Assembly: GCF_002532075.1 (NCBI RefSeq)
Contig: NZ_LYXE01000157.1
Location: forward strand, 62,001-126,000
Reading direction: 5' to 3'
Length of the DNA stretch: 64,000 nt
Origin: Candidatus Chloroploca asiatica
GTDB lineage: Bacteria; Chloroflexota; Chloroflexia; Chloroflexales; Chloroflexaceae
This document shows, one piece after another, positions 6,629 through 57,869 of the stretch. Within the stretch, counting starts at the first letter, position 1; the number at the start of each line of letters is the position of its first letter. The translations under genes were made by a program, and so were the position numbers. The notes below the pieces were generated by a model. That model had not been told where the DNA came from and made no database searches. It saw nothing but the letters and a program-made list of their open reading frames with translations.

Positions 6629-7297
6629 TCACGTCTCGTCACCCTGTGATGCAGAACATTCATGCCAGAGGGTTTCGAGCAACGGACGAATGACAGCGAG
6701 GGCAAAGCCTCGTCGTTGGAGGAGACCGCCGAGACGGCGTTGAAACGTGGTGCGGTCAGGGCATGCACAGTACCGTGCAAGAACTGATCGCGCAACCTGT
6801 TCTGCCGCCTGCCGTTCTCCTTCGGCATCGGCACCGACCTCGGCCAGTGCTGTTGCGATTGTATCACGATCTACGCCTTTGTCGCGCAACTCGGCAACGA
6901 GCGCACGCACCCCCCGTGGTCGAAACCGTTGTCGGTTTTCGACCCAGTAGCGACTAAATGCCGCATCATCAAGCAACCCAAGGTCTTGCAGACGCTCGAG
7001 CACCTGATCAATCACCTGAGGGGGATGCTCTTTCTGGCGCAGACGCAAGCGCACCTCGGCGCGGCTACGAGGGCGGGCATCGAGCAAGCGCATAGCAGAC
7101 AGGAGGGCCTGTTCTACCTGTGCTGATGCCGCCAGGCGTTGCCAGGCGGCATCATCAAGGGTCAGACCGACCCACAAACCCTCACGGGCGAGGGTTGCGA
7201 GGGTTATCCCAAGGGCAAAGGCCCCATCAATGAAAATATTGACACGCTGGCTATCGTGAAGCTGCGCAGTGATGGCGGTAATGGTGCCTGCGGGCAT
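6629..7297 (-). CDS. recX: Regulatory protein RecX
   Basis: A 222-residue RecX-family protein that binds RecA filaments and modulates recombinase activity. The three-helix repeats typical of the family are visible: ALLSAMRLLDARPRSRAEV, then VLERLQDLGLLDDAAFSRYWVENR with the conserved L(L)DD.xFA-like signature, and FRPRGVRALVAEL followed by the C-terminal repeat. The N-terminal about 60 residues form the beta-rich extension seen in longer RecX proteins. It starts 13 nt after the recA stop, the classic recA-recX arrangement, so translation is probably coupled to recA expression. Confidence 0.93.
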   Translation of the reverse strand: MPAGTITAITAQLHDSQRVNIFIDGAFALGITLATLAREGLWVGLTLDDAAWQRLAASAQVEQALLSAMRLLDARPRSRAEVRLRLRQKEHPPQVIDQVLERLQDLGLLDDAAFSRYWVENRQRFRPRGVRALVAELRDKGVDRDTIATALAEVGADAEGERQAAEQVARSVLARYCACPDRTTFQRRLGGLLQRRGFALAVIRPLLETLWHECSASQGDET

Positions 7298-7310
7298 CGT
7301 GGCTGGCTAA

Positions 7311-8375
7311 CTACTCCTCGTCTTCAAAGAGGCCGGCGTCTTCATCGTCGGCAATGGCCGCGACGGGCAGCGCAATCGGATTCGAGAGGCCCTGGGCTTT
7401 GATCAGGCGCTCGATCTCTTCAGTCAGCGCCGGGTTCTCCTTCAAGAAGTTACGCACATTCTCGCGCCCCTGTCCGAGGCGGTCTTCGGCAAGGTAGAAC
7501 CAGGCCCCGCTCTTGCGGATGATATTCATCTCGACGCCAACATCAAGGATATTGCCCTCACGCGAAATGCCTTCATTGGCGAGGATATCAAACTCGGCCT
7601 GACGGAAGGGTGGGGCCACCTTATTCTTGATCACCTTGACGCGTGCCCGTGAACCAATCACCTCTTGCCCCGACTTGAGCGTCTCGATGCGGCGAATATC
7701 GAGGCGCACCGAAGCGTAAAACTTGAGTGCCTGCCCACCCGTAGTGGTTTCGGGCGAACCGAACATCACTCCTATCTTCATACGCAACTGGTTGAGGAAA
7801 ATAACGATGGTTCGGCTCTTGTTGATGGCCCCGGAGAGCTTGCGCAGGGCCTGGCTCATCAGGCGGGCCTGGAGACCGGGGAGGCTGTCTCCCATGTCGC
7901 CTTCGATTTCAGCGCGAGGCACCAAGGCCGCCACTGAGTCGATGACGATGACATCGATGGCATTGGAACGAACGAGGGTTTCACAGATCTCAAGCCCTTG
8001 TTCACCGGTGTCGGGCTGTGAGACGAGCAAATCATCGATCTGGACACCACAGCGCTGGGCATAGATCGGGTCAAAGGCATGCTCAGCGTCAATGAAGGCA
8101 CAGACACCACCGAGTTTCTGGGCTTCGGCAATGATATGCTGGGCCAGCGTTGTTTTGCCACTGCTCTCGGGGCCAAAGATTTCGACGACGCGACCGCGGG
8201 GCAAGCCACCGATGCCCAGCGCAATGTCGAGGGCAATCGAACCAGTGGGGATCGCCTCAATCGCCAGACGCGAGTTGAGCTCGCCCATCTTCATGATCGA
8301 GCCTTTGCCGAATTTGCGGTCGATCTGGCTCATTGCGGCAGCCAGAGCCTTCTCTTTTTCGGGCGCGATTGCCAT
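7311..8375 (-). CDS. recA: Recombinase RecA
   Basis: A 354-residue strand-exchange ATPase and SOS co-protease. Seen: GKGSIMKMG at the N-terminal linker, Walker [10 protein letters not shown], Walker [11 protein letters not shown], the QALRKLSG helix, the loop-2 region [13 protein letters not shown], and an acidic tail ending GLFEDEE. The ATG at 8375 follows GGAGGAG with 9-nt spacing and gives [14 protein letters not shown] at 8405 (MSAHNGG) also has an AAGGAG upstream, so a 364-residue form is possible. First gene of the recA-recX-MBL-pyrG unit, with a strong promoter at 8485-8513 carrying an inverted repeat in its spacer. Confidence 0.98.
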
Positions 8376-8484
8376 CGCGGGCGCTCCTCCGTTATGTGCT
8401 GACACTCGTGCTTCTCCTTCTCTCTACTCTACTATGAGGGAGGGGCGCTGTCAACGCAGATTGACTCGCCCGCAAATCTGTTCT

Positions 8485-8513
8485 ATTATAGCACGCCCGT
8501 GCGTGCTTGGCAA
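8485..8513 (-). promoter_or_regulatory. recA promoter with inverted repeat in the spacer (candidate operator)
   Basis: On the minus strand: TTGCCA (8513-8508), 17-nt spacer, TATAAT (8490-8485), with TGC before the -10 (extended -10). The inverted repeat AGCACG-N6-CGTGCT occupies 8490-8507, the whole spacer. A repressor bound there would block polymerase, so it is a candidate LexA-type site. It does not match the GAAC-N4-GTTC box. Confidence 0.75.
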
Positions 8514-8568
8514 GTTGCTTGCATGATTTATACCGCTGCCGCACGCCAAAGGATACGCCGCGAAGCTA

Positions 8569-8577
8569 TGTTATAGT
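8569..8577 (+). promoter_or_regulatory. Extended -10 promoter of the DUF427 gene
   Basis: TG-T-TATAGT, 22 nt before the ATG at 8599. There is no convincing -35. Confidence 0.5.
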
Positions 8578-8598
8578 GAAAGAAAGGAGGAATTAAAG

Positions 8599-9090
8599 AT
8601 GATACGTCGCATTCCACCGGGTGAAGGTCAGGAGTCGGTCTGGGATTATCCTCGGCCACCGCGACTCGAAGCGACCTCGCGCCATCTTCAGATCTATTTT
8701 GGAGGCATTTTGCTTGCCGATACGCGGCGGGCCTTTCGGGTGCTCGAAACCAGCCATCCTCCGGTCTACTATATCCCTCCCGAGGATGTGCAGATGCGTT
8801 ATTTGACTCGTACAGCGCGCAGTAGTTTCTGCGAATTCAAAGGCCAGGCGATCTACTATACGCTTCAGATTGAGAACCAGCGTGTTGAAGATGTTGCCTG
8901 GGCCTATCCACGACCAACCCGGGGGTTTGAGGCGCTTGCCAATGCTCTGGCCTTTTACCCTGACCCAATGGATGGATGTTTTGTTGATGGCGAACGGGTG
9001 ACGCCGCAACCAGGCGGTTTCTATGGGGGTTGGATTACGTCGGATATTGTCGGGCCTTTCAAGGGGGGGCCTGGAACCTGGGGATGGTAG
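8599..9090 (+). CDS. DUF427 domain-containing protein
   Basis: A 163-residue soluble protein of the DUF427 family, a small beta-barrel fold of unknown biochemical role. Family hallmarks seen: WDYPRPPRLE, IYFGGILLADTRRAFRVLETSHPPVYYIP, then RSSFCEFKGQAIYYTL and the VAWAYPRP segment. The ATG follows an unusually good ribosome binding site (AAAGGAGG, 8 nt upstream), suggesting strong translation. It is monocistronic, divergent from recA and convergent with a histidine kinase, with a long hairpin in between. No context explains its function. Confidence 0.88.
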   Translation: MIRRIPPGEGQESVWDYPRPPRLEATSRHLQIYFGGILLADTRRAFRVLETSHPPVYYIPPEDVQMRYLTRTARSSFCEFKGQAIYYTLQIENQRVEDVAWAYPRPTRGFEALANALAFYPDPMDGCFVDGERVTPQPGGFYGGWITSDIVGPFKGGPGTWGW

Positions 9091-9097
9091 ACGCGTT

Positions 9098-9142
9098 GTG
9101 TGGTGGCAAACAGCCGATGAAACTGGCTGTTTGCCACCACAC
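9098..9142. terminator. Long perfect hairpin between convergent genes (hairpin family copy)
   Basis: Perfect 18-bp stem (9098-9115 with 9125-9142), 9-nt loop, starting 8 nt after the DUF427 stop. The arm contains GGCAAACAGCC, the family AAA plus GCC core. No external T-run. Confidence 0.8.
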
Positions 9143-9167
9143 ATGCATGCGTTGCTCGGGCAACAGC

Positions 9168-10844
9168 CTAGTTATGGTCGCTCAGTGGGAGGCAGATCGT
9201 AAAGGTTGTCCCCTGGCCTTCCTGGCTGGTACAACTGATCATGCCGCCGTGCTGCTGCACAATCTCGCGAACAATGTACAGGCCAATGCCCAGACCAGTG
9301 AACGAGCTGTGCTGAACATTGGCGGCACGATAGAACTGCTCAAACAAGTGTTGTTGTGCCTCGAGAGGGATACCAATACCCTGATCGCTGATCGCCACAC
9401 AAAGATGTTCGTCTCTCTGCTCGAGGGTGAGGAGGATGGGGCCTCCTGCCGGACTATATTTGATGGCATTGCTGATGATATTCTGAATTACTTCTTCAAT
9501 GCGCAGTTCGTCAGCAAAGATCCGCAGCGGATCAGGGGTGGCCAGCAGTTCAAGGGTATGCCGACTCAGCGTCGGGCTCACCTCGGCCACGATCCGCTCG
9601 ACCAGCCTCCTCAGATCAAACCAGTCGCGTTCGATAACCAATTGGCCGGTCTGAATGCGTGATAGATCAAGCAACGACGTCAACATCCGGTTGAGACGCA
9701 GACTCTGCTGAACAATCGCCTGAATCGGGCGGGTAAAGGCTTCACCAAGCTGGGCGTGTTGCATGCGGCGGTCGAGCAACTGCGCCTGGCCGAGCATCAC
9801 GGTGAGAGGGGTACGCAAGTCGTGTGAAGCGACAGCTATGAAATGGTCGCGGGTGGTGACGGCTTCTTGCATCGTGCTATAGAGGCGGGCCCGCTGCAGC
9901 GCCTGGGCACATTGCACCGCGATCGCCCACAGAAAAGCCCGTTCATCCTGGGGAAATTGACGCGGCTCAGCAAAACTAACCATACAGACGCCCATCACCT
10001 GGCCCTCGACTTCCAGTGGCAGCAGAGCCAGACCGTGCGCATCTGCCGCGAGTGGCGGTGGAAGGGTAACTGATTGATAGAGCGCCTCCCTATCGGCCTG
10101 TGAAACAAGAAAGACTGGGAGCGCAGTCTTCAAGGTCTCGCCAAGCGGATGAGTGGTGTCGAGTAGCATCGTGATCGGCACAGGGGCTGTAGTATCAGTG
10201 GGGGGGGCATTGGTGCTGTGTAAGACCTCCAGCGCCGTACCATCGACACTGCGGACATACATTGCTACCTGGTGGGCATCGAGGGTCTGCCGCACCTCTT
10301 CAACGACGACACGCGCCACATCTAGCGGCGTGACGGCTTCAGAAAGGGCTGAGGTAATCGTCTGAAGACGCTCTACCCGTCGCACAGCTTGCTCGGCCAT
10401 CTGGCGTGCAATGCGCTCACGGGCAAGGAGAAACTCTCGTTCATGCTGGATGCTATAGCGCTCGCTGACATCAATCGCCGAAGGAATTAGGTAACGGATA
10501 TTGCCATATGCGTCACGGAGCGGGGCCAGCATAAAATCGATCATCATCAGGCGCTCGTCGGCGACCCGCACCATCACATCATACCGTGAGGTCTCACCAG
10601 CCTGGCCACGCGCAAGGGCCAGGCATAGTTCGGCCTGAACGTCAGGATCGTACGACCACCAGTAGGTCTCGTGAAATGGCTTACCAATGACATCGGATGG
10701 TTGCAAGCCAGCCACCTTGAGGGCAGACTGATTCGCTTCGATCAGGATGCCATCAAACGTCACTACACCAACAAAAGCAAAGAGGGAATCCAGGAGAGCC
10801 TGCGCTGAGAATGAATGTAGAATGTCGGCTTCACCTGGTTGCAT
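9168..10844 (-). CDS. PAS-GAF sensor histidine kinase
   Basis: A 558-residue cytoplasmic sensor kinase without membrane helices. An N-terminal PAS domain (about 15-135) is followed by a short coiled coil, a GAF domain (about 165-300), a HisKA dimerisation domain with phospho-acceptor His in SHDLRTPLTV, and an HATPase_c domain with N-box NIISNAIKYSP, DQGIGIP and GLGIGLYI. The stimulus is probably a cytoplasmic ligand or redox cue. ATG 10844 has GAGAAG 6 nt upstream; the longer ATG at 10862 has a Shine-Dalgarno sequence too close to be useful. No response regulator is adjacent, so it is an orphan kinase. Confidence 0.92.
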   Translation of the reverse strand: MQPGEADILHSFSAQALLDSLFAFVGVVTFDGILIEANQSALKVAGLQPSDVIGKPFHETYWWSYDPDVQAELCLALARGQAGETSRYDVMVRVADERLMMIDFMLAPLRDAYGNIRYLIPSAIDVSERYSIQHEREFLLARERIARQMAEQAVRRVERLQTITSALSEAVTPLDVARVVVEEVRQTLDAHQVAMYVRSVDGTALEVLHSTNAPPTDTTAPVPITMLLDTTHPLGETLKTALPVFLVSQADREALYQSVTLPPPLAADAHGLALLPLEVEGQVMGVCMVSFAEPRQFPQDERAFLWAIAVQCAQALQRARLYSTMQEAVTTRDHFIAVASHDLRTPLTVMLGQAQLLDRRMQHAQLGEAFTRPIQAIVQQSLRLNRMLTSLLDLSRIQTGQLVIERDWFDLRRLVERIVAEVSPTLSRHTLELLATPDPLRIFADELRIEEVIQNIISNAIKYSPAGGPILLTLEQRDEHLCVAISDQGIGIPLEAQQHLFEQFYRAANVQHSSFTGLGIGLYIVREIVQQHGGMISCTSQEGQGTTFTICLPLSDHN

Positions 10845-52184: not shown

Positions 52185-52751
52185 TTATACCTCAACATCT
52201 TTGCTCAATAACTCACCCAGCAGCGTATCATCACGTGGAGGGGGCAGGGGCGCTGGGGCGGGTTCATCGCCGACAAAGATCAGATAGGTTGCAAGGGTGA
52301 GCGTGCCAACGGTAATGGCGCTATCGGCCAGATTGAAGACCGGCCACCACCCAACACTGATAAAGTCGACCACATACCCAAGACGGATCCGATCCAGCAC
52401 GTTGCCCAGGGCCCCCCCGACAATCAGGCCCGTTGCACCTTGAATGAGCCGCCGTTGATTGGGCAGATAGGCGATATAAGCGTAGATCAAGCCACCGGTA
52501 ATCAGCAGTGATGTCACAATAAAGAGCGCTGATAAGTTCTGGAAAAGACCAAAGGCCACGCCAGTATTACGGGTATAGATCAGTATCAACCAGTCATCAA
52601 ACAGATAGAGGCTACGCTGATGGGGTTCTGGCCCGAGCACATTGACCGCCCAGGCTTTGCTCATCTGATCAAGGACAAAGATACTTACCCCCACAAGCAG
52701 TGGAAGCAGCCAGCGTTGCGTCTGGGTAGATGGAGATACTGATGCTCTCAA
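52185..52751 (-). CDS. lspA: Lipoprotein signal peptidase, second copy
   Basis: A 188-residue signal peptidase II with four membrane helices. DQMSKAWAV, YTRNTGVAFGLFQ, GGALGNVLDRIRLGYVVDFI and FNLADSAIT hold the family residues, including both catalytic Asp (DR and AD). The last 30 residues form a Pro-rich tail absent from the other copy. TTG is the best start, 7 nt after the upstream stop; no strong Shine-Dalgarno, so reinitiation is likely. It is about half identical to its neighbour. Confidence 0.92.
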   Translation of the reverse strand: MRASVSPSTQTQRWLLPLLVGVSIFVLDQMSKAWAVNVLGPEPHQRSLYLFDDWLILIYTRNTGVAFGLFQNLSALFIVTSLLITGGLIYAYIAYLPNQRRLIQGATGLIVGGALGNVLDRIRLGYVVDFISVGWWPVFNLADSAITVGTLTLATYLIFVGDEPAPAPLPPPRDDTLLGELLSKDVEV

Positions 52752-52758
52752 GGTTGTC

Positions 52759-53277
52759 TCACTGACTGGTCAACGTCTCATGCTTGCGTGCACGGCGCTC
52801 GGCCAGATCTTCACGCAAAAACTGGTAGATGAGCAGCACTGCCCCGATGGTGATCGCACTGTCGGCCACATTGAAGATCGGGAACCACCCAACACTGATG
52901 AAATCGACCACATACCCGAGCCTGATACGATCAATCAGGTTGCCAAAGGCCCCCCCCATAATCAAGCCCATGCTCGCCTGAATAAGGGGCTGGTGATGAT
53001 CGAGATGGGCGGTATAAAAATAGATCGCCCCGGCAACAATGCAGAGAGCCGCGATGGTGAGTAGTTCGGGGTGCCCCTGAAACATGCTGAACGCAACCCC
53101 GGTGTTATGTGAATAGACGAGGCGAATCCATCCACCAGGTAGGGTGATCGACCGCGCCATGGTCTCGGGGCCAAGGGTTTGCACAACCCACCACTTGGTC
53201 GCCTGGTCAAGCAAGAGAAAGGTGCTTGCGATGGCGAGCGGTACGGCCCATATACGAATAGTGTGCGAACGCTGCAC
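52759..53277 (-). CDS. lspA: Lipoprotein signal peptidase, first copy
   Basis: A 172-residue signal peptidase II that cleaves prolipoproteins before the lipidated Cys. Four membrane helices; DQATKWWVV, YSHNTGVAFSMFQ, GGAFGNLIDRIRLGYVVDFI and FNVADSAIT carry the two catalytic Asp. GTG 53277 has AAAGGAG at 7 nt; the frame is open to 53310. First gene of lspA-lspA-rluD. A palindromic TATAAT lies about 50 nt upstream. Confidence 0.93.
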   Translation of the reverse strand: MQRSHTIRIWAVPLAIASTFLLLDQATKWWVVQTLGPETMARSITLPGGWIRLVYSHNTGVAFSMFQGHPELLTIAALCIVAGAIYFYTAHLDHHQPLIQASMGLIMGGAFGNLIDRIRLGYVVDFISVGWFPIFNVADSAITIGAVLLIYQFLREDLAERRARKHETLTSQ

Positions 53278-53327
53278 AGATACGCTCCTTTGAAGAGTTG
53301 GGAATCTCACAAAAAGATAGCCTCTGT

Positions 53328-53341: not shown

Positions 53342-53430
53342 TTATGCGCGTTTTTTGGAGATCTGTCAGGGTCTGTGGGTGCGTAGATTGTCACGAGTCG
53401 TTTTGGTGTAGCCATTAAGGTTTTGCTTGC

Positions 53431-55401
53431 ATGCATATGTCGTACATTTCTCTCGTATGGCTGATTATTGCGCTGATGATGACTGGTTTTATGGTCTTGG
53501 TCTTACCCGGACTGGCGTTGCTGGCTCTTTTCGATCGACCTGAACGTCGCCGTTCCTGGTTTGAACAGCTTAGTCTGGCGATTGGGATCAGTCTGGCGTG
53601 GCTGCCTGTCTGGCTGCTCTGGACAGATATGCTTGGATGGCACCTCGGAGCAATGAATGTCTGGCTGCCAGCCTTGCTCAGTGTTGTTGTGCTGGTCTGG
53701 CACGGACGCCATCAACGCCGACCTAACTCCTCGCCCCTTCCTTTGGATAGCTACGACATAGCACTTGGAGCCTTGTTCTTGCTCATTGTTGTCGTCCGCC
53801 TGGCGATCGTTGCGCCCCTTGAGGCTCCGATGTGGGGTGATGCGTACCATCATACGATGATCGCTCAGCTGATTATTGACAATGGAGGCCTCTTCCGCTC
53901 GTGGGAACCATATGCCCCGTATCAGACGTTCACGGTGCAGTTTGGCTTTCCTGCCATGGTCGCAGGGTTTCCCTGGGTTACTGGTATATCAACTGTTGAG
54001 GCGGTGCTTGTCACGGGTCAGTTGCTGAATGCCGCAGCAGCCCTGGTCTTGTATCCCCTGGCCGTCCGGTTGGCTGATGGACGCCGGGTCGCGGGTCTGG
54101 TCGCGGTGTTGGTCGCTGGTCTATTGACGGTCGTGCCAAGCTTCTATGTCAACTGGGGGCGGTATGCTCAACTTGCTGGGCAGGTCATCTTACCTATTGC
54201 TATGGTGTTGACCTGGGAGATGTTTGCTGCGCCACGACCTCCGTGGCGTAGTGCTGGCCTCTTGGGGTTGGTTGTGGCTGGGATGACGCTGAGCTATTAT
54301 CGTATGGGGTTTTTCTATGCCGCGTTTATCGTGGTACTCGTGCTCTGCTGGGTTCTACCGCATTGGCGTACGAAGCGCTCTACCTGGCTACAGGCCTTGC
54401 CACCACTGATTCTGGCGGCTCTGGTTGCCGCCGGACTGTTGCTGCCATGGGTCTTTCGGGTCACCAATAGCCTTCTTGCTGATATGGTGTCTGTAGCGTC
54501 AACCACAGGTGTGCCTACGAGTTTTGTCTGGCATGATTACCAGAACTGGCAAGAAGTGACAACGTATATTGCCCCGCTCTTGCTCTGGATGAGCGGGTTG
54601 GCTGTGGCCTGGGCACTGGTGCGTCGGGCGTGGATGATCGTGGGTCTTGTGCTCTGGATCGGTTTACTGGTTTTGTATTTTGCTGGGACGCTGGTTGGTC
54701 TCCCCGGGGCTGTGATGTTGCAAAGCTTCTCGGTCATGATTGCAATCTATATGCCTGTCGCTCTGCTCTGTGGATGGTTAGCCGCCGAGATGATCGCTTT
54801 CTTACCGACACCTCGCCTCAAAGCGGTTCTGCCCCTTATTGCTGTAGTGCTGCTCGCTGCTTGGGGAGCGTTGCAGCAACGCCACATAGTTGACCCGTTC
54901 TATGCTATCGTCACGCAACCCGATATGAAGGCAATGGACTGGATTAAGCGGAATACGAAGCCAACCGATCTCTTTCTTGTGCAAGGCTTTACGATCTTTC
55001 AGGGAACGTCGGCGGTGGGGGCTGATGCCGGTTGGTGGATTCCATTGCTGACAGGCAGACAAAATACGATGCCACCGCAGTATCCAATGTTGAGTGAACG
55101 GCCTGACCCACCCGATTATACCCAGCGTGTGGTTGATCTTGTGCTGTTGATGGAGGCTCGGCCCCTGGATGATGCAGAGGTCATCGATCAGCTGTGTGCA
55201 TGGGGTGTCACCTATGCCTATTATGGTCAACGGCAGGGGCAAGCTGGTTTTGGCGCTGAACCGCTCTTTCGGCTTGATGATCTGCACGCTAGTCCGTATT
55301 TTACCCTGATGCATACGCAGGATGAGGTCGCGATTTTTGCTTTTGATCAAGCGGTGTGCTCCTCACGCGAAGGGCGATCGGTGCGCAGGCCTGCATTATG
55401 A
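53431..55401 (+). CDS. Large polytopic membrane protein, GT-C glycosyltransferase-like
   Basis: A 656-residue protein with about 12-13 membrane helices and a C-terminal soluble domain of about 150 residues. The first extracytoplasmic loop has EAPMWGDAYHHTMIAQLIIDNGG, the acidic-plus-His pattern seen in GT-C transferases such as the ArnT/PMT and oligosaccharyltransferase class. The C-terminal AMDWIKRNTKPTDLFLVQG and DWTTPYITG-like segment resembles the soluble part of such enzymes. Starts ATG 53431 or 53437. It overlaps the next gene (ATGA), so they probably work together. Donor and acceptor unknown. Confidence 0.7.
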   Translation: MHMSYISLVWLIIALMMTGFMVLVLPGLALLALFDRPERRRSWFEQLSLAIGISLAWLPVWLLWTDMLGWHLGAMNVWLPALLSVVVLVWHGRHQRRPNSSPLPLDSYDIALGALFLLIVVVRLAIVAPLEAPMWGDAYHHTMIAQLIIDNGGLFRSWEPYAPYQTFTVQFGFPAMVAGFPWVTGISTVEAVLVTGQLLNAAAALVLYPLAVRLADGRRVAGLVAVLVAGLLTVVPSFYVNWGRYAQLAGQVILPIAMVLTWEMFAAPRPPWRSAGLLGLVVAGMTLSYYRMGFFYAAFIVVLVLCWVLPHWRTKRSTWLQALPPLILAALVAAGLLLPWVFRVTNSLLADMVSVASTTGVPTSFVWHDYQNWQEVTTYIAPLLLWMSGLAVAWALVRRAWMIVGLVLWIGLLVLYFAGTLVGLPGAVMLQSFSVMIAIYMPVALLCGWLAAEMIAFLPTPRLKAVLPLIAVVLLAAWGALQQRHIVDPFYAIVTQPDMKAMDWIKRNTKPTDLFLVQGFTIFQGTSAVGADAGWWIPLLTGRQNTMPPQYPMLSERPDPPDYTQRVVDLVLLMEARPLDDAEVIDQLCAWGVTYAYYGQRQGQAGFGAEPLFRLDDLHASPYFTLMHTQDEVAIFAFDQAVCSSREGRSVRRPAL

Positions 55402-57869
55402 TGCAACGCACTTCTTCGTTTGTGAGGCTGCTTGTCCGCCTCGTGCTGCCGCTTGTCTGGTTCGAGAGCATTGCCCGCGTAGCGGATCAACCGGGGCCAG
55501 AGTCAACCATCTTTCGTGTGCTCTTTCTTGGTGGGGTGCTCGCTGCCGCGGTGGCTGGTCAACCTGTCTGCGAAAGGGGGCGGCGTTGGCGCCTGCCCTG
55601 GCCCGGCGTTATGCTTGTTGTCACGAGTCTGGTGGCCGGAGGCTTCTATTATGTGACACAGCATACAGTGGCGGCATGGGTGCTCACCTTAACTGGATGG
55701 GTGCTCGCGCTCTGGTTGTATGACGTGTTGATCGTTCGTCGGTCACGTGTCATTCGGGTCAGCATTGCCACAGCGCTGGCAAGCATAACTGCGGGGGCAA
55801 CGGTCGCCCTTGCCTTGCTGGAGAGCCGCTTCAGTGAAGAGGAGTTTTTTGTAGCGCTGGCCGGTCTTAGTATGGCCGGTGGTTGGATGTTGACCCTCAG
55901 GGCCTATCAAGGGTTGTCTAGGTTGGTTGTAACCCATCACGTAGATGAAGAGGCAGTTGATCTGGGTGCCTTGGCAACGTGGTCTGCGAGGCTTCGCCAG
56001 GGTGGGCTGAGGCTAGCAATCAAGCGACGATGGGTGGCTGCTAGCCTTGGTTTGAGCGTGCTTGTTGCGATGGTCGCTCTCGTACGGGCCTATCAACAAA
56101 GCTTTTTTCCAGTTCCACCGGCGCCTTATCCTGGGATCAGTGCCGAACAGCCAGTGCTCTGTGGGCAGATCGCTCCCGCAGGGCAGACCTACACCGGGCA
56201 AGAGGTGTTTGCCCAGATGCTTGCCCTGGTTGAGGCGCATCCGCAAAAAGGGCCGCCCGAATATGGCATGCTAGCGCTGGGTAGTGGTGACCCCGCATGG
56301 ATCGAGCTGTTTCGCACATCGCTCTTGGCTGAAATGAGCGCGGGGCGTTTTACTGAACCAGCCAACAGTGTCAAGATCGGACAATGGTACGCAGCCCAAC
56401 GGGTCTATTATTATGTCCATATGCGTGAAAGGTATCCGGAACTTTTCAGCAGCGATGAGGATGCAGCCATTCAGACCTGGTTTGCTTCCATCAATCAGCG
56501 TACCCTGACCGTCGAATGGGTTGACTGGCTCTATGCGCTGGCACTTGCGTACTGGCCTGCTGGCCCCTATGAAAACCAGGAAAATGGCGCTGGCCTGCTG
56601 GCCCTGCTTGCGGCAACCGGACTGGGTGATCCGGCGCTTGTCGAGGCCGGGCAGCAGTACCTTGACCAACGGCCTCGTGGGTGGGAAGGGCGCACGCGTA
56701 ACTCTGATGATACGTACTACTATCAGAGTGAATGGGTCACAAATGCCTATTTTCAGGCACTCCGAGATGGTACTATCCCTGCTGAAGAGGTACGCCAGTC
56801 TTTCGAATGGTTGCTGCTGCAGATGGTTCCTGATGGTCGTCCAGTTTCGTACAACAATCCTTACCCGATCACCCGTGAGGGTGCCCTGGCGTTGGGCGCA
56901 ACCCTGTTGAACGATCCCCGCTATTTGTGGGCAGCAGGGCGAACAGCAATGAGCGAGGCGCGCTTTTTTGACTTCATCGTCGCCCAGCCTGGTGTGAACG
57001 AGGCGCTGCCGCTGATTGCACAATCACCAACAGAAGGGTCTTGTCTGATCTACGGTGATACGGGCACCCCCATTCGGGTTGGGCCTCTGGCTCCCGACAA
57101 AATTGTCTTTCGTGACAGCTGGGAGCAAGATGCAACCTATGTCATGCTCAATTTACGTTTTACAGGCTGGCATCGGTATAAAGCCACCAATACCATCACC
57201 CTGGCCTATTATCAGGGCGATCTGATTGCTGATCAGCTTGAGGCGCACTATGTGCCGTGGTTGCCTCGTGGCCGCAGCTTATTACGCGACAAGCGCATTC
57301 CGCGTGAGCATGTGAGTGGCCTTGTGGTACGCCAGAGTGGCATCAACGCTGTGCAAGCCCTATTGAGTGGCATTGGGAGTAGATGGGCCCAGGATCCGCC
57401 GTTCTTTGCCGAGGTTGACCAGTTTACAACTGATGAACAGTGTACGGTGAGCACAACGAGCCTTGCTGATTGGCGCGGATGGGATCACCACCGTACGATA
57501 CGTTTCTGTGTAGGGGAACCCACGCTTATTGTTGATGAAGCACAAGGTGCGCGTGGTGACGAGGCGGCCCTGATGTGGAATTTGGCCACTCTAGGGACAC
57601 ATCAGGCCGGACGGATCAGGCTCACGGAACATGCCGAACTCGTTCTGATCCCGCTGGACCGTGCGAGGATTGAACATGACGGCCCACAACGCATCATGGT
57701 GCAAAGCAATGGCCCGACGTTACGCTCAGTCGCCGTTCTGCTAACGGGATCATGGGTAGGGGCCACCGTTGATCCAGGGCCAGACAATGCGGCTACCAGT
57801 GTGCGGATCACTGGCACGGCAGGAACGCTTGAGTTGCCTACCTTTGCCAAAGCACTAGTGTCTCCTTGA
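55398..57869 (+). CDS. Membrane-anchored heparinase II/III-like protein
   Basis: An 823-residue protein. Residues about 1-235 contain five or six membrane helices. A large extracytoplasmic part follows: an alpha-helical toroid-like region (about 265-545, with EWVDWLYALALAYWPAGPYENQENGAGLLAL and TYYYQSEWVTNAYFQAL) and a beta-rich region (about 570-820). In it, KIVFRDSWEQDATYVMLNLRFTGWHRYKATNTITLAYYQGDLIADQ has the layout of the heparinase II/III strand block. So it may be an anchored polysaccharide lyase or a non-catalytic binding protein. Start by ATGA overlap with the preceding gene. The enzymatic residues are not certain. Confidence 0.55.
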   Translation: MMQRTSSFVRLLVRLVLPLVWFESIARVADQPGPESTIFRVLFLGGVLAAAVAGQPVCERGRRWRLPWPGVMLVVTSLVAGGFYYVTQHTVAAWVLTLTGWVLALWLYDVLIVRRSRVIRVSIATALASITAGATVALALLESRFSEEEFFVALAGLSMAGGWMLTLRAYQGLSRLVVTHHVDEEAVDLGALATWSARLRQGGLRLAIKRRWVAASLGLSVLVAMVALVRAYQQSFFPVPPAPYPGISAEQPVLCGQIAPAGQTYTGQEVFAQMLALVEAHPQKGPPEYGMLALGSGDPAWIELFRTSLLAEMSAGRFTEPANSVKIGQWYAAQRVYYYVHMRERYPELFSSDEDAAIQTWFASINQRTLTVEWVDWLYALALAYWPAGPYENQENGAGLLALLAATGLGDPALVEAGQQYLDQRPRGWEGRTRNSDDTYYYQSEWVTNAYFQALRDGTIPAEEVRQSFEWLLLQMVPDGRPVSYNNPYPITREGALALGATLLNDPRYLWAAGRTAMSEARFFDFIVAQPGVNEALPLIAQSPTEGSCLIYGDTGTPIRVGPLAPDKIVFRDSWEQDATYVMLNLRFTGWHRYKATNTITLAYYQGDLIADQLEAHYVPWLPRGRSLLRDKRIPREHVSGLVVRQSGINAVQALLSGIGSRWAQDPPFFAEVDQFTTDEQCTVSTTSLADWRGWDHHRTIRFCVGEPTLIVDEAQGARGDEAALMWNLATLGTHQAGRIRLTEHAELVLIPLDRARIEHDGPQRIMVQSNGPTLRSVAVLLTGSWVGATVDPGPDNAATSVRITGTAGTLELPTFAKALVSP

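Follow-up and report, generated by a model that had tools for sequence, protein, structure and literature searches.

The window analysed in this study is a stretch of 64,000 nucleotides from Candidatus Chloroploca asiatica, which carries on its forward strand two adjacent genes for large membrane proteins, here named P1 and P2. According to the open reading frames and the Pfam, AlphaFold, and Foldseek results, P1 (53431-55401) encodes a protein of 656 amino acids, predicted to be a GT-C membrane glycosyltransferase with weak DUF6541 similarity, and P2 (55398-57869) encodes a membrane protein of 823 amino acids, counted from the ATG at 55398, with a predicted extracytoplasmic domain of heparinase II/III type. 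The stop codon of P1 and the start codon of P2 overlap in the sequence ATGA (55398-55401), as the preliminary description of this DNA had stated, and the 4-nt overlap recurs in about ten other loci. That description began P1 at 53398; the open reading frame is indeed present, but its first ATG lies 33 nt downstream, at 53431. On the left flank, translations from the opposite strand read as two lspA-like genes and a pseudouridine-synthase-like gene, while those on the right flank read as nadA-like and nadB-like genes. Since these neighbors are housekeeping genes, the P1-P2 pair stands alone in the window, and it is not adjacent to other glycan genes there. P2 is found as a single copy in the source genome (5.84 Mb). 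The two lspA-like genes just upstream of P1 are arranged in tandem (52185-53310, reverse strand) and encode signal peptidase II-like proteins of 188 and 183 amino acids.

Single-protein searches with P1 and P2 (Pfam, NCBIfam, and phmmer against the PDB) returned nothing usable except a weak DUF6541 match in P1 (1.2e-6, 27.6 bits against a cut-off of 29). A DUF1616 stretch in P1 was weaker still in Pfam, and P2 from the window had no Pfam match on its own, in line with the earlier remark that neither protein has a confident family name. DUF6541 was matched by seven of 15 P1 relatives, the best at 1.1e-12. The P1 model built by AlphaFold from 15 homologues (pLDDT 85, pTM 0.88) was compared with the PDB by Foldseek; the top match was AftA (5e-7), and the others included yeast and human STT3, DPY19, AglB, and PglB, with ArnT weaker. 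All 21 PDB matches at E <= 0.001 are GT-C enzymes or GT-C-containing complexes, and P1 is therefore a GT-C transferase by predicted fold. The preliminary description had called P1 GT-C-like and let this proposal stand or fall with the predicted structure, and the structural search bore it out.

In the P1 model, Asp137 (53839-53841) of a WGDxxxH motif sits after helix 107-127 in the first large extracytoplasmic loop and is near-invariant among the 15 homologues, so that by analogy with GT-C families generally it is a candidate catalytic acid of the GT-C core. The C-terminal extracytoplasmic domain, which starts at about residue 490 of the model, carries a GADAGWW motif (residues 530-536, 55018-55038) that is near-invariant in the homologue alignment. 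The WWDYG motif expected in the C-terminal domain of STT3 / GT66 oligosaccharyltransferases is absent from the P1 family (15 homologues), which has GADAGWW instead. Thus, P1 resembles AftA, STT3/PglB/AglB, DPY19, and ArnT in its GT-C fold and in the loop position of its conserved Asp, but its identity to them is 10-15%, and it differs from them in the GADAGWW motif and in extra N-terminal helices (the DUF1616-like stretch).

The AlphaFold model of P2 (19 relatives as input, pLDDT 84) consists of an N-terminal membrane domain (residues 5-235, 55410-56102), an alpha/alpha toroid (about residues 260-525, 56175-56972), and a beta-sandwich (about residues 541-815, 57018-57842). N-terminal membrane helices had been expected from the sequence; their number is seven in the model, not five or six. 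Loop charges predict a topology with the N-terminus inside and the C-terminus outside, which places the conserved acidic RFSEEEFF motif (residues 144-151, 55827-55850) in an extracytoplasmic loop; F145 and E148-F151 of this motif are invariant in the alignment. The best Foldseek match of the P2 model was the heparan-sulfate lyase HepC (4MMH, 5e-13), and further matches included other heparinase III structures, PL35 GAGases, lyases of PL15, PL17, and PL21, as well as human dermatan-sulfate epimerase 1 (1.4e-7). The extracytoplasmic part of P2 is thus predicted to fold as the heparinase II/III type, an alpha toroid followed by an antiparallel beta sandwich, confirming the earlier impression of a toroid-plus-beta-sandwich architecture like that of polysaccharide lyases.

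At the sequence level, no similarity between the P2 family and known lyases reaches a curated cut-off. Hepar_II_III_C was matched by eight of 19 P2 relatives, below the cut-off in those read individually, with the best at 21.3 bits against a cut-off of 24. The sole PDB profile match of P2 was the BT4657 heparinase III chain (E = 0.17). P2 defines a lyase-fold family that is missed by current Pfam and NCBIfam models.

Three residues of P2, invariant in every relative that covers them, are candidate counterparts of the lyase Asn/Tyr/His triad. Asn393 of a YxNQE motif (56574-56576), at the start of a toroid helix, would match heparinase III Asn240 as the charge neutralizer; Tyr442 of a DDxxxYQ motif (56721-56723), also at the start of a toroid helix, would match Tyr294 as a base/acid; and His592 of a GWHRYK motif (57171-57173), in the sandwich, would match the catalytic His424. 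In the profile alignment with the BT4657 chain, the WHR of the His592 motif pairs with the catalytic-histidine motif WHC. Published triads are Asn240/Tyr294/His424 in heparinase III, Asn192/Tyr246/His401 in GAGase II, and Asn201/Tyr258/His413 in PL17 (PMC12088678). The spacing of the P2 residues (49/150) resembles that in PL35 and PL17, being 54/155 in GAGase II, 57/155 in PL17, and 54/130 in heparinase III, as computed from the residues in PMC12088678. Asn393 is followed by Gln394, where several lyases carry His, including PL39 and the PL15 exo-heparinase (PMC12088678). Local hhalign of P2 against a heparinase III fragment aligned part of the beta sandwich only, and when the P2 ectodomain was aligned globally by hhalign to individual canonical heparinases, the toroid stayed unaligned; because these comparisons fell short, the assignment draws on the invariance of the three residues, their spacing and motif context, and a single weak profile alignment. 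The catalytic Tyr, His, and Asn suggested as a check on P2 are represented by conserved positions with family-like spacing.

A scan of GTDB genomes identified 17 loci, almost all of them in Chloroflexota, including Chloroflexales bacterium ZM16-3 and an Oscillochloris MAG from the same family as the source genome. According to whole-genome searches, P2 is present in six of 41 genomes of its own family, in 13 of 346 from the class to which the uncultured Anaerolineae MAG G096 belongs, and in five of 400 across the phylum, so that its distribution is sparse and patchy. Among the loci with an intact P2 and available upstream sequence, about 21, counting the window, have P1 as the gene immediately before P2; they belong to Chloroflexales, Anaerolineae, and allied lineages. 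The single exception is the Anaerolineales MAG SJ511 (L032/L033), in which a weakly DUF6020-like membrane protein precedes P2, suggesting that P2 may partner another membrane protein. The order is kept among full-length relatives at 33-55% identity, and the divergence of P1 and that of P2 are correlated over 12 loci (r = 0.89, Mantel p = 0.0005), which argues against chance. The co-occurrence of the pair across Chloroflexota, raised as a further check on the proposal, is thus borne out in scattered lineages (about 20 other loci). Two short contigs, one of 5.4 kb labelled Blastopirellula and one of 3.7 kb labelled Aenigmatarchaeota, also carry the pair; both were taken as mis-binned because they are short and the GT4 on the Aenigmatarchaeota contig closely matches Anaerolineae. 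In one further locus (L015 of G208, 6979-10301), P1 is intact and only pieces of P2 remain, with about 2.5 kb between them; this segment, which may be an old insertion element, is bounded by 29-nt inverted repeats that match imperfectly (79%).

At least one P1-type match was found in 38 of 41 genomes of the family, and P1 paralogues without P2 are present in most of them, indicating that the P1 family is wider than the pair and that P2 is an accessory or optional partner of one of its branches. Two such paralogues occur in tandem in another genome of the same genus as the window (G253, L118 4768-8669). TAG stops seemed to lie inside P1 paralogues; in the single copy that was read, the TAG proved to be the gene's own stop codon, where the match ends.

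In many relatives, the pair heads a glycan cluster. A GT4 gene usually comes next, and then more GT4s, a flippase (Polysacc_synt), a polysaccharide pyruvyltransferase, methyltransferases, and LPG_synthase_TM. A close copy of the GT4 partner was not found in the source genome, where the best match had 33% identity. Each of the ten P2 genomes examined for it encodes a UDP-sugar dehydrogenase, a near-universal enzyme that could supply uronic acids. The clusters often also encode a secreted protein of about 450 residues, which is present in eight distinct P2 loci (L023, L025, L027, L029, L030, L031, L034, and L059); its sequence reads as having a signal peptide and some four repeats of beta type (FxVQN), and it has no convincing match in Pfam or NCBIfam. 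The same protein is found in three P1-paralogue clusters without P2, one of them in the source genome (L117, 9240-10607; homologues also in L118 and L119). By its association with these clusters, it is a candidate acceptor and a possible glycosylated surface protein.

Several known proteins resemble P2 in part. P2 shares with the PL12 enzymes heparinase III and HepC (4MMH, 5JMF) the toroid, the sandwich, and the Asn/Tyr/His positions and spacing; it differs from these degradative enzymes in having no significant sequence similarity to them and in adding seven membrane helices and a GT-C gene partner. Fold and triad pattern are common to P2 and the PL35 GAGases and PL15, PL17, and PL21 lyases, which are soluble catabolic enzymes and have no membrane part, and the Gln after Asn393 sets P2 apart from PL39 and the PL15 exo-heparinase. 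Human dermatan-sulfate epimerase 1 (6HZN), which is membrane-bound, shows that a heparinase-type fold may serve glycan maturation instead of degradation, but P2 has its membrane helices at the N-terminus and no second invariant His.

Soluble heparinase II/III-family proteins in bacterial EPS and O-antigen loci also lie beside glycosyltransferases, and one of them, a canonical protein of 659 amino acids, occurs in the source genome itself, where its gene neighbors a GT4 within an EPS cluster (L064/L065, G000:C61), so the association of a heparinase fold with glycan synthesis is ordinary. Unlike P2, these proteins have a clear Pfam match, no membrane domain, and no adjacent GT-C gene, and no convincing profile similarity was found between P2 and proteins of this kind such as L064. 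Degrading or editing enzymes are likewise encoded with the synthase in polymer-synthesis loci for alginate (AlgL), Pel (PelA), and cellulose (BcsZ), although these lyases or hydrolases are soluble periplasmic proteins of other folds with no coupling to a GT-C gene. The earlier suggestion of an undescribed surface-glycan assembly or editing system therefore holds in part: the relatives do have glycan-synthesis neighbors, but a heparinase fold beside synthesis genes was already known, and it is the membrane-tethered, GT-C-paired version alone that appears undescribed. The seven-helix tether and the strict pairing with a GT-C gene appear to be new, and the coupling by overlapping genes and the retention of the pair outside clusters likewise set it apart from the ordinary case. 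A literature search on DUF6541, on GT-C with heparinase, and on heparinase in EPS clusters found nothing relevant.

Taken together, P1-P2 is probably an uncharacterized module for building and trimming a glycan at the cell surface. The full model, to which we give about an even chance, builds on how P1 and P2 are predicted to fold, which residues are conserved, how the two genes are coupled and kept together, and which glycan genes surround them in relatives. In this model, one operon would allow P1 and P2 to be made together and to act on a common glycan outside the cytoplasmic membrane. P1 would draw on a polyprenyl-linked donor and hand its sugar or oligosaccharide to a surface acceptor, while P2 would be held at the same site by its seven membrane helices, with the heparinase-type domain facing outward, and would act by beta-elimination to cleave or shorten the product, which would contain uronic acid; Asn393 would neutralize the carboxylate, and Tyr442 and His592 would serve as base and acid. 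The donor, the acceptor, the lyase activity, and the topology are postulated parts of this model. A stronger version, in which P1 and P2 form one membrane complex that assembles and edits a nascent uronic-acid glycan with the beta-repeat protein as acceptor, supposes in addition a physical association and an acceptor role, and we consider it unlikely; if true, it would define a surface glycan or glycoprotein system of Chloroflexota.

A non-catalytic P2, whose toroid and sandwich would bind glycan as a platform, keeping the nascent chain in place for P1 or passing it to export, has a small chance of being correct. The very low sequence similarity to lyases fits this reading, and the many conserved residues outside the triad (RDKRxPRE, WAQDPP, and RFSEEEFF) suggest a specialized role; however, binding alone would not need the invariance of all three triad positions. 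It is also conceivable, though doubtful, that P1 is of the oligosaccharyltransferase type and glycosylates the secreted beta-repeat protein, with P2 trimming the attached glycan. STT3, PglB, and AglB are among the best structural matches of P1, and the secreted protein is encoded in both P2 and P2-less clusters, but the family lacks WWDYG and its top match, AftA, is a lipid-linked sugar transferase that acts on polysaccharide. N-x-S/T sequons are not consistently enriched in the beta-repeat proteins and are depleted in the copy of the source genome (one found against 5.4 expected), and N-glycosylation of this protein by an STT3-type P1 is accordingly unsupported by the sequon counts.

We regard as improbable that P2 is a uronyl C5-epimerase that, like dermatan-sulfate epimerase, alters stereochemistry in the growing glycan instead of cleaving it. 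Such editing would suit a biosynthetic cluster better than degradation, and the structural match to epimerase 1, itself a glycan-maturation enzyme, agrees with it. Dermatan-sulfate epimerase uses additional histidines. His592 is the sole invariant His in P2, and the toroid has no second one, which argues against an enzyme of this type; Gln394 also brings P2 closer to PL12/PL35 than to the epimerase. That P2 is an ordinary heparinase II/III-like gene of a polysaccharide locus whose adjacency to P1 has no functional meaning, as the canonical protein beside GT4 in the source genome might suggest, is quite unlikely because the pair is conserved, its order and frequent 4-nt overlap being kept at such divergence across distant lineages and the pair being retained even where there is no cluster, as in the window.

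The preferred reading remains a coupled P1 and P2 that build and trim one surface glycan. The phylum Chloroflexota includes filamentous phototrophs as well as abundant members that are uncultured, and to our knowledge its surface glycans are largely uncharacterized; the two genes of the P1-P2 pair offer a concrete point of entry. By joining the folds of a transferase and a lyase in a single coupled membrane unit, the pair would directly model synthesis-coupled glycan editing in bacteria.
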